39,330 bases of DNA from contig DFWY01000009.1 in NCBI GenBank assembly GCA_002381615.1, positions 21,004 to 60,333 of the forward strand, written 5' to 3'. The translations under genes were made by a program, and so were the position numbers. The notes under the pieces were generated by a model. It did no database searches. It had not been told where the DNA came from and saw nothing but the letters and a program-made list of their open reading frames with translations. This DNA is from Polaromonas sp. UBA4122. Lineage in GTDB: Bacteria > Pseudomonadota > Gammaproteobacteria > Burkholderiales > Burkholderiaceae_C. Below, piece after piece: positions 11,694-39,226 of this stretch. Numbering within the stretch: the stretch's first letter is position 1; the number at the start of each line of letters is the position of its first letter.

Positions 11694-11760
11694 AATTCAA
11701 GCAAATAATGGTTGTAGCGCGCCATTGACTTGCGTGAGCAGCTATGAATTACGTAGCAAC
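11689..11760 (-). repeat. Dispersed two-stem repeat, copy F
   Basis: Read on the minus strand this copy runs from TTGCTACGTAATTCATAGCT to TTGAATTTCAGG. The first stem is GCTA/TAGC. The second stem is weak in this copy. Its 3' border CCTGAAAT (plus strand) contains the TGA stop codon of the Lrp regulator. Copy G lies 50 bp further on in the same orientation. Confidence 0.75.
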
Positions 11761-11810
11761 CAGTACGAACGCATCGTCCGCCTTGGCCCACCTCCCCCAC
11801 CCGGTCGTTT

Positions 11811-11873
11811 TAATGCCTTTTATGGCCGTAGCTCCCGAGTGACGGGCGAAAACTGCTATTAGTTTACTAGCAC
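11811..11873 (-). repeat. Dispersed two-stem repeat, copy G
   Basis: On the minus strand it opens TGCTAGTAAACTAATAGCA (first stem TGCTA/TAGCA), continues with CGCCCGTCACTCGGGAGCTA (second stem CCCG/CGGG) and ends GGCCATAAAAGGC. All blocks match the other copies in order and spacing. It lies in the convergent gap between the Lrp regulator and mltA, a 249-bp interval containing only copies F and G. Confidence 0.7.
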
Positions 11874-19800: not shown

Positions 19801-21131
19801 GCGGCCGGTAGTGCCGCAAGACTCAGCCCCGCCACACGACCTTTGGCAGCAAAGGTGGTGGGCGCCTCCAGCGGGCCTTGCCAGCGGGCTTCAAGGGTTT
19901 CCACCAACCCCTTGGGCGCGAAGGAGGTGATGAGCGCATGCGTGGCACTGTCCAGGGGCAGGCGGTTGGCGATCTGGGTCAGTGCCGCAAGGTCAAGCTT
20001 GTCGGCCTTCAGTTCGCTGTGCTGGGGCGCTCCCGCTTGATCATTGGTGTGAACCAGCGCCACGTTGCCGCCGGGCCACTGCAAGCCGTCCCGGGTGAGA
20101 AACCGCAGGCCCTCGGTGTTGAAATCAAAGCCGTTGGCGCGCTGTCCACCACCGATACGCCCGGCCACCGATTCGAATGCCAGGGGCTCAAGCTTGGCAC
20201 CCAGCTGGGCGTCCACATCCTGTAGCGCCACATCGGCCACACCGCCCGTGATCTTTCCTTTGCTGACATCAGCCCAGGCGCGAAGCGCTCCATTGCCCCG
20301 TATCAGTTCCACACCCAGCGTGTCCATGCTGACGTATTGCCTGATGCGTGACACGTCGACACGGTCGAAGTTGGCATACAGCTGACCTGTCCACGCGGCA
20401 AAATTGCCCGCGTTGCCCGACAACAGCGACTGCCTGAAAATACCCCTGAGCGTGAAGCGGTCACCCCATTCGGCGGGTGGCGTGGCGTCCAGACGCAGGA
20501 GGTGGCGGTGCCGGGCATTGCGCATCACCCCATCCACCTGCGTCAGTGCCAGTGGCGGCGCGGGGTGCAACTCGTCGGTCCAGCGCACGGTGCCGCCGCG
20601 CAAGACGAACTCGGTTTGCGAAAAGAACCAGTCGGCCACTGCGCTTTGGCCGGCGTCCCGGTTCCGCGAGACATCCAGTCCGCCCACGTAGATCTTTCCG
20701 TCGGCGGTGCGCCGGATGTCGAGATCAGGCTTGTCGATATACAGCTGTTCAAAGCCGAGCCCCCAGAGAGAGGAGGGCGACAGGGCACCCAGAACGCGCG
20801 GCAGGCGCAGAGCCTCGCGTCCCTGCGCATCCAGCAGCGTCACGTCGTGCAACTCAAACGAGGGAATCATGCCCTGCGAATGCGCGGTGATCTGACCGAT
20901 GCGAACAGGAACCCCCAGCGCCTTGCTGGCCTCTATTTCAAGACGCGGACGGAATTCCCCGATTCGCGGCACAATCCATCCATGCAGCACCCACCAGCTC
21001 AGGCCAAAGAGCAGCCAGGCCGCCGCGACCAACCACAGCAAGAAGCGCATGGAAAATGCGATCCACCGGAGGCGTCGGGGCGGCAAGGCTGGCGGGGTGG
21101 ATGGAATGGCTATCGTTGGCTCCAAGGACAT
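16878..21131 (-). CDS. yhdP: YhdP family AsmA-like envelope protein
   Basis: At 1417 residues this is a long AsmA-like protein of the YhdP family; E. coli YhdP works with TamB and YdbH in moving phospholipid to the outer membrane. An N-terminal membrane anchor (about residues 25-52) is followed by GRxEI-type family sequence (PRIGEFRPRLEIEASKALG). The rest is a very long periplasmic beta-rich region. The C-terminal AsmA-like part includes LLGVLSLQSLPRRLTLDFRD and GSADIARETQNIKVVVVPE, both strong YhdP signatures. It is the first gene of a run with the nitrilase, kinase and regulator genes, and is divergent from glnE. Confidence 0.94.
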   Translation of the reverse strand: MSLEPTIAIPSTPPALPPRRLRWIAFSMRFLLWLVAAAWLLFGLSWWVLHGWIVPRIGEFRPRLEIEASKALGVPVRIGQITAHSQGMIPSFELHDVTLLDAQGREALRLPRVLGALSPSSLWGLGFEQLYIDKPDLDIRRTADGKIYVGGLDVSRNRDAGQSAVADWFFSQTEFVLRGGTVRWTDELHPAPPLALTQVDGVMRNARHRHLLRLDATPPAEWGDRFTLRGIFRQSLLSGNAGNFAAWTGQLYANFDRVDVSRIRQYVSMDTLGVELIRGNGALRAWADVSKGKITGGVADVALQDVDAQLGAKLEPLAFESVAGRIGGGQRANGFDFNTEGLRFLTRDGLQWPGGNVALVHTNDQAGAPQHSELKADKLDLAALTQIANRLPLDSATHALITSFAPKGLVETLEARWQGPLEAPTTFAAKGRVAGLSLAALPAAVPATSAVAGSATHATPGRPGVSGADIDFDLTHEGGKAKVIISNGALDLPGIFEESQLPLDQLSVDTQWKFSGRKIQAQLHNLQFANADAQGQAQVSWRTEDLAPGMPTASTLTDHRFPGVLDLQGTLSRGDGTRVHRYLPLVLPDAVRHYVRDAVLQGQVSDVKFRVLGPVRQLPFINPAQGDFRVSAKVHNGHFAYVPKSLQPPGAAPWPALTELNGELVFNRAALDVNGASGKVAGLPGLQLVKADARIPDLTHGATVEVTTDIQGLLSDALGFVNRSPISDMTNQVLAKAVATGMGDYHFHLSLPIHSIDKSQVAGSITLPGNDVQFAPGTPQLTKLKGVVSVSERGFTVTGAQAILFGGDIRFDGGMRAQARPAAGSPEMETPVTFKAQGTLTAEGLRQAKDLGLISRMAQHASGSTAYSASLGFRRGVSEVTVSSSLQGMALNLPAPLSKTAESALPLRFENVLLRDAMKPGQTLQDQLSVSIGRVAAISYVRDVSGTEPRVIRGSIGVGLEAGETVPAPEAGVAANINLARVDLDAWGKILADSTGGSALQAAPSGSSDVAVNRSAASSALGYLPTVMAIRAKELVVEGRRLNNVVVGGSREGLNWRANIDASELNGYVEFRQPGGVGAARLYARLSRLSLAHGTASDVEAILNEQPASIPALDIMVEDMELRGKKLGRVEIEAVNRGASTTVSNGVREWRLNKFNVILPEAVLTATGNWVAVNAPVASPAAAGGPGATRASTESRRTVLNFRLDIADSGELLKRFGMGELIRRGKGKLEGQVAWVGSPLSLDYPSMSGQFNVNVESGQFVKADPGIGKLLGVLSLQSLPRRLTLDFRDVFSEGFAFDFVRGDVTIKQGLAHTNNLQMSGVNAAVLMEGSADIARETQNIKVVVVPEINAGTASLIATVINPAVGLGTFLAQMFLRRPLMEAATQEFHIDGTWADPKITKIDRKAQGRAGDAPAGTR

Positions 21132-24802: not shown

Positions 24803-25996
24803 ATGAACCGATTCAAACTCAAACCAGTTGCTATTGTTTTAATAGCTGTTTGCGCAATAGGGGCGGTGGCTATAGCCATGTTTTATTCAAAATCAGGGAC
24901 TACGAACAAGTCCACGGCCATGCCCGCCGCGACCGCCCGGCCCGCGCTCACCGTGACCACGACACAGGCGCAAACCAGCGCCCTGCCGATCCAACTGACG
25001 GCCAACGGCAATATTGCCGCCTGGCAGGAAGCCAGCATCGGGGCGGAAAGCAACGGTCTGCGCCTGGCCGAGGTGCAGGTCAATGTGGGCGACGTGGTGC
25101 AGCGCGGCCAGCTGCTGGCCCGCTTTGCCGATGACAGCGTACAGGCCGACGTGGCACAGGACCGCGCCGCTGTGAATGAAGCCACGGCCAGCGCCCTGGA
25201 GGCGACGGCCAACGCCGATCGTGTGCGCACGCTTGCCGGCACCGGTACCTTCAGCGGCCAGCAGATCAACCAGTACCTGACCGCCGAGCAGACCGCCAAA
25301 GCGCGGGTGGAGTCCGCCAAAGCCGGGTTGGCGGCGCAAGCGCTGCGCCTGAAAAACACCCAGGTGCTGGCGCCCGACAGCGGCATCATCTCGGCGCGCA
25401 GTGCCACCGTGGGCGCCGTGCTGGCCTCGGGCACCGAGTTGTTTCGCCTGATTCGTCAGGGCCGGCTGGAGTGGCGCGCGGAGGTGACGTCCACCGAGCT
25501 GGGCCGCCTGCTGCCCGGTACCGTCGTCAGCGTGACGGCCGCCAGCGGCGCGCGGCTCTTGGGCCGGGTGCGCATGGTCGCCCCCACGGTGGACCCGCAA
25601 ACCCGCTCGGGCCTGGTGTATGTGGATCTGCCGACGGACCCCAAGACGGGCAGTCCGTCAGGCTTCAAGGCGGGCATGTTTGGCCGTGGCGAGTTTGAGC
25701 TGGGCAGCTCAAACGCCCTGACCGTGCCGCAGCAGTCCGTGGTGGTGCGCGATGGTTTCAGCTACGTGTTTCGCCTGAACGCCGACCAGCACGTCAGCCA
25801 GATCAAGCTGCAAATGGGGCGACGCGTGGGCGACCGGGTAGAGGTACTTTCAGGCCTCAACGCTGACGCGGTGCTGGTGGCCAGTGGCGCTGGTTTCCTG
25901 AACGATGGCGATCTGGTTAAAGTGGTCCCTGCTCCTGCTTCCACAGCAAATGCGCCTGTAGCCCCCGTCAAACCTTCGGCACCAGCTAGCAAATAA
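24803..25996 (+). CDS. RND efflux membrane fusion protein (periplasmic adaptor)
   Basis: A 397-residue HlyD/AcrA-type adaptor linking an inner-membrane RND pump to an outer-membrane channel. The N-terminus MNRFKLKPVAIVLIAVCAIG followed by AVAIAMFYSKS is an uncleaved anchor or signal peptide; this segment is encoded almost entirely by repeat copy B. It is not a good lipobox (Val precedes Cys). A lipoyl-like half-motif (ANGNIAAWQEASIGAESNGL, then VNVGDVVQRGQLLARFAD) begins at about residue 68. An alpha-helical hairpin spans about 115-180, and the second lipoyl half contains VLAPDSGIISARSATVGAVL. The beta-barrel and C-terminal parts follow. The stop lies 9 bp before the pump gene start, with AAGGAG between. 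No outer-membrane factor gene is nearby. Confidence 0.93.
   Translation: MNRFKLKPVAIVLIAVCAIGAVAIAMFYSKSGTTNKSTAMPAATARPALTVTTTQAQTSALPIQLTANGNIAAWQEASIGAESNGLRLAEVQVNVGDVVQRGQLLARFADDSVQADVAQDRAAVNEATASALEATANADRVRTLAGTGTFSGQQINQYLTAEQTAKARVESAKAGLAAQALRLKNTQVLAPDSGIISARSATVGAVLASGTELFRLIRQGRLEWRAEVTSTELGRLLPGTVVSVTAASGARLLGRVRMVAPTVDPQTRSGLVYVDLPTDPKTGSPSGFKAGMFGRGEFELGSSNALTVPQQSVVVRDGFSYVFRLNADQHVSQIKLQMGRRVGDRVEVLSGLNADAVLVASGAGFLNDGDLVKVVPAPASTANAPVAPVKPSAPASK
24828..24897 (+). repeat. Dispersed two-stem repeat, copy B (inside adaptor gene)
   Basis: This copy runs from TTGCTATTGTTTTAATAGCT to TTATTCAAAATCAGG. The first stem is GCTATT (24830-24835) with AATAGC (24841-24846). The central part is less regular but contains a GGCTATAGCC palindrome. 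It lies wholly inside the coding sequence, in frame, reading VAIVLIAVCAIGAVAIAMFY and on to the Ser-Gly boundary. Confidence 0.7.
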
Positions 25997-26005
25997 GGAG
26001 CAGTC

Positions 26006-29238: not shown

Positions 29239-29309
29239 CCTGAAATACAAGACAAATCGGCTCTCGGCCCTTTATTGACGGGCATGAACAGCTATTTATT
29301 TAATAGCTT
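29239..29309 (-). repeat. Dispersed two-stem repeat, copy E
   Basis: On the minus strand it begins CAAGCTATTAAATAAATAGC: the first stem is GCTATT/AATAGC. GCCC (29267-29270) and GGGC (29280-29283) form the second stem. It ends TCTTGTATTTCAGG. The last codons and TAA stop of rfaE2 are made by its first arm, and its other end lies 26 bp from the pump gene stop. Confidence 0.8.
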
Positions 29310-32240: not shown

Positions 32241-32313
32241 TTGCTATATTTTTAATAGCTATTTGTGCCCGTATTTATTGGGCTTAAGTCACTTTTTTGC
32301 TCTAAAAAATCAG
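32241..32313 (+). repeat. Dispersed two-stem repeat, copy C
   Basis: It runs from TTGCTATATTTTTAATAGCT to CTCTAAAAAATCAG. The first stem is GCTAT/ATAGC, and the second is GCCC (32267-32270) with GGGC (32280-32283). The final TCA (32310-32312) is the TGA stop codon of the glutathione S-transferase gene read on the other strand. Confidence 0.8.
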
Positions 32314-34900: not shown

Positions 34901-34972
34901 TTTACTACTAAATTAATAGCTGCCTGTGCCCGTCCTGTAAGGGCTGGAGGCCTAAAAGTCTTGTATTTTCAG
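34901..34972 (+). repeat. Dispersed two-stem repeat, copy D
   Basis: It runs from TTTACTACTAAATTAATAGC to CTTGTATTTTCAG. The first stem is degenerate. The second stem is GCCC (34928-34931) with GGGC (34941-34944). It ends TTTTCAG, in which TCA (34969-34971) is the TGA stop codon of the DUF3717 gene on the minus strand. It fills nearly all the gap between two minus-strand genes. Confidence 0.75.
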
Positions 34973-38692: not shown

Positions 38693-39226
38693 ATGACGAC
38701 GTCTTCTCCTTCTTCTTCAGCACTCACCCACTTCGACAGTCAGGGCCAGGCCCACATGGTTGATGTGGCGGCCAAGCCGGCCACGCACCGCATCGCCATC
38801 GCCCAAGGCCGTATCGTCATGAATCCGGCAACGCTCTCGATCATTCTGGCAGGTAGCGCCAAAAAAGGCGATGTGCTGGGCATCGCACGCGTTGCCGGCA
38901 TCATGGCCGCCAAAAAGACCAGCGACCTGATCCCGCTGTGCCATCCGCTGGCGCTGACCCGGGTTGCTATTGATTTTGTAGCTGCTCCCATAGTCAGTAC
39001 GGGAGCTAAAGGCCTTATGGAGGGTGAAACAGGGGCTGTCACCTGCACCGCCACGGTAGAAACTGTCGGCCCCACCGGCGTGGAGATGGAAGCGCTGACC
39101 GCCGTCAGCGTCGCACTGCTCACCATCTACGACATGTGCAAGGCGGTGGACCGCGGCATGACCCTCACCGACGTGAAACTGCTCGAAAAGCACGGGGGGA
39201 AATCGGGGGACTGGGTAAGTGGTTGA
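38693..39226 (+). CDS. moaC: Cyclic pyranopterin monophosphate synthase MoaC
   Basis: MoaC, with MoaA, converts GTP to cyclic pyranopterin monophosphate, the first intermediate of molybdenum cofactor. Catalytic regions are intact: [66 protein letters not shown] and [13 protein letters not shown]. The 177-residue protein is longer than the usual 160 or so. About 12 extra residues sit between CHPLALTR and [15 protein letters not shown], and this stretch is encoded by repeat copy A. The start ATG 38693 has only a distant AAAGG. No other mo genes are in the window; 39227-39330 shows no feature. Confidence 0.95.
38964..39020 (+). repeat. Dispersed two-stem repeat, copy A (inside moaC)
   Basis: It begins TTGCTATTGATTTTGTAGCT (first stem GCTA/TAGC). 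The second stem is a perfect 6-bp GCTCCC/GGGAGC around a 10- to 11-base loop, and it ends AAAGGCCTTATGG. It reads in frame from moaC codon 91 as [20 protein letters not shown], with the same frame and orientation as copy B in the adaptor gene. Confidence 0.75.

Follow-up and report, generated by a model that had tools for sequence, protein, structure and literature searches.

Palindromic repeats lying in frame within genes for conserved enzymes are best known from Rickettsia, according to a review (PMC2229807). The Rickettsia palindromic elements (RPEs) are described there as repeats of 105–146 bp that form long stem-loops and have terminal inverted repeats, and one RPE product, Gmk, is reported there to have been shown active. 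The same review includes the MITEs ERIC, RU-3 and NEMIS, small non-autonomous repeats with open frames that have been found fused to genes (PMC2229807). The Beta-proteobacterial repeat element (BRE) is dispersed in Bordetella and the Comamonadaceae, with some copies wholly within coding sequences, and the full-length element in Bordetella measures 75–91 bp and averages 69% GC (PMC3110155). The REP palindrome is given as 20–40 bp (PMC3733652).

The repeat considered here was noticed in moaC, within a stretch of 39,330 nucleotides from Polaromonas sp. UBA4122 (the window: assembly GCA_002381615.1, contig DFWY01000009.1, forward-strand positions 21,004 to 60,333). No Rfam family reaches its gathering threshold within the window, and the literature searched, in which few subscription journals were covered, yielded no account of this repeat.

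The repeat family and its copy in moaC

The repeat, about 70 bp long, has a GCTATT-N5-AATAGC hairpin, followed by a second, weaker one (GCCCG/TGGGC), and ends in an AT-rich tail. Conservation covers approximately positions −5 to +65 relative to the anchor in 121 of 123 distinct fetched copies, the other two having been excluded from the conservation profile for a poor anchor or nearness to an edge, and in the comparison with MITEs the ends displayed AT-rich character only. The anchor GCTATTN7TAGCTGC, with at most two mismatches, gave 525 matches in the 4.17-Mb genome vs. 132 for the reversed pattern. A covariance model, R2, was built from the 30 loci listed for exact anchor matches in this genome, minus moaC, leaving 29 other copies; its E-values are approximate, because calibration was shortened. 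In the genome scan with R2, 150 of 2224 first-look candidates were scored and all of them had E ≤ 7.1e-8, so this copy number is a lower bound; the moaC copy is absent from the 150 scored places. Covariation of both stems in alignment A1 was not above that of shuffles, a result that says little in either direction since hairpin 1 hardly varies. The features in the window are as follows.

38693..39226, + strand: moaC, cyclic pyranopterin monophosphate synthase, 177 aa (Pfam MoaC 3.8e-55, profile 1–136 of 136)
38964..39028, + strand: in-frame moaC copy of the dispersed two-hairpin repeat (R2 29.8 bits, E = 1.3e-7)
38963..38980, + strand: left part of the repeat, coinciding with codons conserved in MoaC (those for VAIDF plus the one after; from relatives' codons)
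38966..38982, + strand: hairpin 1 of the repeat, GCTATT...TGTAGC, a weakened GCTATT-N5-AATAGC (from sequence and family structure)
38984..39006, + strand: perfect GCTCCC/GGGAGC stem, in a register unlike the family's usual stem 2 (from sequence and R2 alignment)
24828..24892, + strand: repeat copy at the start of an HlyD-family ORF (24803–25996; Pfam HlyD; R2 51.5 bits, E = 4.1e-15)
34902..34966, + strand: repeat copy (R2 45.7 bits)
29245..29309, − strand: repeat copy (R2 42.1 bits)
11695..11759, − strand: repeat copy (R2 41.9 bits)
32241..32306, + strand: repeat copy (R2 39.1 bits)
11809..11873, − strand: repeat copy (R2 25.0 bits)
25939..26003, − strand: weak repeat-like match (R2 21.6 bits, E = 8.7e-5)

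The segment in moaC is a real in-frame copy of the repeat. It ranks sixth among 13 R2 matches in the window at E ≤ 10, eight of which have E < 1e-4, and the claim of the preliminary description that a repeat copy begins at codon 91 is borne out by its score: this codon occupies 38963–38965, and the repeat starts at its second base, 38964. The stem formed by GCTCCC (38984–38989) and GGGAGC (39001–39006) is perfect, as had been described, but its register differs from that of the family's usual second stem, and in the R2 alignment two of the five stem 2 pairs of the moaC copy are marked as non-standard. Approximately 15 nt at the left of the element are conserved RVAIDF codons and not added sequence (L018, as an example of a relative, reads GTG GCG ATG GAT TTC at that place), so that the element, of about 19 codons, is not the same thing as the net gain, of 12 codons. 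At the same place in moaC, R2 matches strongly in L004 (36.3 bits, 2.5e-9) and L006 (35.1 bits, 6.3e-9) and weakly in L005 and L010 (16.7 bits, E = 0.014 each), and is silent at E ≤ 10 inside the moaC of six of ten other long-loop relatives.

Elsewhere in the window, the copy in the HlyD-family gene encodes, as read from the DNA, a hydrophobic N-terminal stretch of the protein. The copies at 11695..11759 and 11809..11873 have the same orientation, with 49 nt between them.

The window gene is the sole complete moaC detected in a genome that is 99.79% complete, and its product belongs to the MoaC family (Pfam PF01967), with a full-length profile match and a MoaC fold. All of the conserved MoaC columns are kept, in agreement with the earlier statement that the catalytic motifs are intact, and the best named matches come from Rhodoferax, Variovorax, Polaromonas and other Burkholderiales, among matches that may omit very near genomes. 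Elsewhere, the genome has a second 3' fragment of moaC, 91% identical across residues 120–175. C-terminal-only moaC fragments occur in ten other genomes of the genus, eight of which also have a longer match, and a phage-type integrase gene directly follows moaC in both genomes examined (G024 and G040). The moaC 3' end looks like an integration site (window 39150–39226; L002 1501–1677; L358 683–1666; L360 594–1610).

Loop length, predicted structure and history of the gain

The spacing from the CHP motif to GVEME is 46 in the window protein, and among the 147 MoaCs with readable motifs (window included, with some near-identical rows such as L046 and L117) it is 34 in 114, shorter in three and longer in 30. 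Repeat-like DNA, with an alignment score >20, is found in nine of the 30 MoaCs with a spacing of at least 35, vs. none of the 117 in which the spacing does not exceed 34. Seven of these scores come from the 11 MoaCs of spacing 46–52 (L001, L004, L005, L006, L007, L010 and L015) and two from the ten of spacing 38 (L116 and L122), whilst L003, L011, L014 and L016, with a spacing of 46, score only 12–18. Solved MoaCs are 10–14 residues shorter at the site in the four alignments shown; for E. coli (4pyd) the difference is 12, which is the approximate excess that had been estimated by eye.

The insert is predicted to sit at a beta-hairpin tip, in the segment that separates CHPL from GVEME. The AlphaFold (AF2) model, with a mean pLDDT of 90.5, has strands at residues 88–98 and 114–126 and coil at 99–113, with a mean pLDDT of 60 over residues 101–110, and it matches solved MoaC structures (28 PDB matches at E ≤ 0.001, MoaC entries on top). 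The preliminary description had asked whether residues 91–109 would be modelled as an exposed loop; the coil predicted at the hairpin tip answers to this in part, and, as the model places a strand at 88–98, residues 91–98 of the repeat would be native strand and the remainder hairpin tip. In eight species with a spacing of 46 (window included), the 20-residue tip has a mean identity of 24% vs. 85% in its flanks. Variability is also seen in the native eight-residue tip of 33 canonical genus mates (38% vs. 82–84% in the flanks), and so is not by itself special to the insert. From these comparisons of sequence, the tip appears to be a site that tolerates change with the insert or without it.

The tree was made from MoaC minus the hairpin and the neighbouring protease, for 103 of 128 rows, 25 rows (L005 among them) having been left out for too little protease. 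Nine of the ten long MoaCs in the tree fall within one clade of 14 (support 0.95), which makes a single ancestral gain the simplest account; the same clade also has four MoaCs of spacing 36–38 and one of 34 (L017), and the long form L007 is placed outside it. Each half of the clade contains long MoaCs that bear the repeat, L006 being in one and L001, L004, L010 and L015 in the other, and L011 and L014, which are long and lack repeat-like DNA, are early branches in one half. Judged from the sequences, one gain in the ancestor of the clade followed by decay or shortening would be the simplest history. The repeat copy in frame and the gain in length first described are real, but the gain is common to the clade and not peculiar to this genome.

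It had also been proposed that orthologues of the same length and residues, lacking any repeat-like DNA, would speak against an insertion. L003, L011, L014 and L016 do share the length without repeat DNA, but their residues differ, and as all four are nested in the clade, decay after one gain is the simplest of several readings. R2 finds no match at E ≤ 1e-6 in genome G042 and four in G003, and their MoaCs (L014 and L011, respectively) still have a spacing of 46, which is what would be expected of old gains. L116 and L122 lie outside the genus in the tree and, at the corresponding point in MoaC, have repeat-like DNA and four additional residues instead of 12 (R2 E = 3.4e-5 for L122 but only 0.088 for L116), suggesting independent events at a permissive site.

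Copies in other genes and the manner of entry

R2 at E ≤ 1e-6, with stricter filters, detected the repeat in 41 of the 61 genus genomes (this genome included) and in none of 40 genomes from other families of the order; within the family, it was present in 38 of 120 genomes drawn (again with this one included). An open frame extending for ≥50 codons upstream of the copy and ≥35 downstream is present at 26 of the 123 distinct fetched copies and absent at 97. Of these 26, 19 ORFs were scanned; Pfam domains were found in 15 and none in the other four. The 15 copies in domain genes represent 14 genes, namely those for PutA (two copies), YggS, HemD, a DAO oxidoreductase, NadE, ThiL, a DUF3047 protein, an aminopeptidase, a tRNA-synt_1c protein, MoeA, PurL, a DUF3108 protein, DapE and MoaC, with the copy outside the domain in the DUF3047 and DUF3108 proteins. 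The earlier proposal that the element can enter coding sequence is supported by such copies in other genes. Eight of the 15 copies are in frame −2, five in +0 and two in −1, and 12 are among the 150 R2 places, the exceptions being moaC and the weak copies L074 and L100, which have an exact anchor yet are not among these places. The two copies in putA (L073 and L074) appear from their coordinates to share one frame, one lying in the Aldedh domain and the other, the weak one, in the Pro_dh domain.

In alignments with PDB sequences, the extra residues at the copy number about 11 in PurL and more than 20 in MoeA, and the DapE alignment breaks at the copy. Two candidates were rejected as insertions on the same kind of alignment, the second PutA copy (L074) with a net gain of only about one residue and YggS with only about three. 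The DapE site spans 29–38 residues in 16 of 17 repeat-rich genus genomes and 16–19 in all seven repeat-poor ones (24 of 28 read); DapE of the repeat-rich G025 has 14 residues there and no repeat. For YggS, the median is 33 residues in repeat-rich and repeat-poor genus mates alike (35 of 35 read), with median DNA scores to the repeat of 40 vs. 15, and for ThiL it is 37 in both groups (28 of 30 read; single ThiLs 25–41), with scores of 55 vs. 16. In many repeat-rich genomes of the genus, yggS (L361–L395, L456–L484) has repeat-like DNA over the whole repeat with its length unchanged, and repeat-free relatives have ordinary codons at that site.

Repeat-like DNA at unchanged length in yggS, and in thiL within the genus, suggests replacement, as the repeat could have been written over a loop that was longer beforehand. 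ThiL is longer in this family than elsewhere, with mostly 44–48 residues vs. 28–39 outside it (read in 28 of 29 and 13 of 14, respectively), so an old insertion at the level of the family may explain ThiL; YggS is not accounted for in this way. Native YggS was compared with the repeat translation against null windows drawn from loci that themselves contain repeats, and none of 22 (13 from other families and nine repeat-free genus mates) was above the 95% point of this null; for other genera of the family, two of 18 were above it, one of these also above the 99% point. That yggS or thiL was the source of the repeat, considered because yggS matches it throughout with no change in length, is not supported, native YggS being no nearer to it than random windows and ThiL being long family-wide. 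The insertion first envisaged stands as regards the gain of 12 residues, but it is not a clean one, in that the copy coincides with conserved codons and that yggS, and thiL within the genus, carry repeat-like DNA without a change in length.

That the repeat enters genes in general by templated overwriting of native sequence, and not by adding a fixed insert, is a tentative proposal that we consider rather unlikely. If it were true, conserved enzymes could be colonised with a net change in length that runs from roughly zero in YggS to a dozen residues or more in MoaC, DapE, PurL and MoeA, in three of the six reading frames.

Competing explanations and comparison with known systems

The reading that we regard as probable is that a high-copy repeat produced a clade-ancestral gain of 12 residues at the hairpin tip of MoaC, and that it is most likely a near-neutral, drifting passenger. 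A presumably non-autonomous repeat of about 70 bp would have entered the moaC frame in the ancestor of a clade of this genus, lengthening the beta-hairpin tip between CHPL and GVEME by 12 residues and putting repeat DNA on the adjacent conserved codons with the encoded residues unchanged. Its sequence may then have drifted, and we propose that it was retained because the tip tolerates very different sequences; mobility and neutrality are both inferred. Counted against this reading are the silence of R2 in six of ten long relatives, the positions of L017 inside and L007 outside the clade, the four long MoaCs without repeat-like DNA (L003, L011, L014 and L016) and the DapE of G025. The observation is confirmed, and the interpretation first placed on it is partly supported.

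An unlikely account of the moaC copy is that the loop was already longer, or had been exchanged, and that the repeat replaced native codons by template switching or conversion. It would fit YggS and ThiL, which match the repeat at unchanged length, as well as the coincidence of the moaC copy with the RVAIDF codons, the +4 instead of +12 in L122 and L116, and the early branching, within one half of the clade, of L011 and L014, whose long loops have no repeat DNA. Repeat-bearing long MoaCs in both halves are, however, what one gain with decay predicts, an old insertion can account for ThiL, and native YggS of other families is no more similar to the translated repeat than random windows are, leaving no obvious homology from which replacement could start. 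It is scarcely credible that ordinary moaC codons and an AT-rich loop mimic the repeat by chance, even though the left 15 nt are conserved codons and stem 2 is outside the family register, given that three species have matches at this one place, with E-values of 1.3e-7, 2.5e-9 and 6.3e-9, and that repeat-like DNA is restricted to lengthened MoaCs.

Retention of the element for a function at this site, as an RNA hairpin for moaC expression or as a loop with a role in the protein, would be consistent with the hairpins predicted on the coding strand and with the extra length long kept in one clade; we consider it improbable, as the repeat has decayed past recognition in four long MoaCs, the insert varies freely and a nested group (L008, L009, L012 and L013) has a shorter loop. 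More improbable still is that moaC is degenerate here and the insertion no longer matters. The C-terminus, KSGDWVSG in the window protein vs. KSGSFINP in the second moaC fragment, and the presence of this 3' fragment lend themselves to such a view, but the gene is the only complete moaC in the nearly complete genome, its conserved residues are kept, and there is no internal stop in the moaC of any of ten other long-loop relatives. The related genomes are numerous enough to date gains and to tell insertion from replacement, and natural loop-insertion variants are on offer in MoaC, MoeA, DapE, PurL, ThiL and others.

Compared with known systems, the repeat resembles REPs in its short palindromic units and high copy number, and there are Y1_Tnp matches in this genome, but its conserved span of about 70 bp is longer than the 20–40 bp given for REPs, and its first hairpin is AT-rich. 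One Y1_Tnp gene (L102 1350–2002) matches nearly the whole profile and has on either side a GC-rich inverted repeat of 20 nt, CCCCGGCAAAGCCGGGG, which is probably that gene's own REP. Near Y1_Tnp genes, R2 matches in L102 (weakly, 4.4e-5), in L103 and L107 (one place) and in L104, in a genome where the repeat is dense throughout, and has no match in L105 or L106. A RAYT as the mobiliser of the repeat was considered and is unsupported; the best Y1_Tnp gene has an inverted repeat of its own. From BRE, going by the description of BRE in Bordetella, the repeat is set apart by its length of about 70 bp and the 30–55% GC of the full-length R2 matches in the window. With ERIC, RU-3 and NEMIS it shares small size and open frames fused to genes, but these have other hosts.

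The likeness to RPEs, which the preliminary description had drawn, is one of behaviour, in that a dispersed palindromic repeat is found both between genes and in frame within genes for conserved proteins. It does not extend to sequence, size or host, as the repeat here has about 70 bp, two short hairpins and a host in a family of the Burkholderiales, and it is not an RPE. What these copies may represent is an RPE-like phenomenon that affects central enzymes of a Rhodoferax-like lineage and the family to which it belongs, with three reading frames of the repeat in use.
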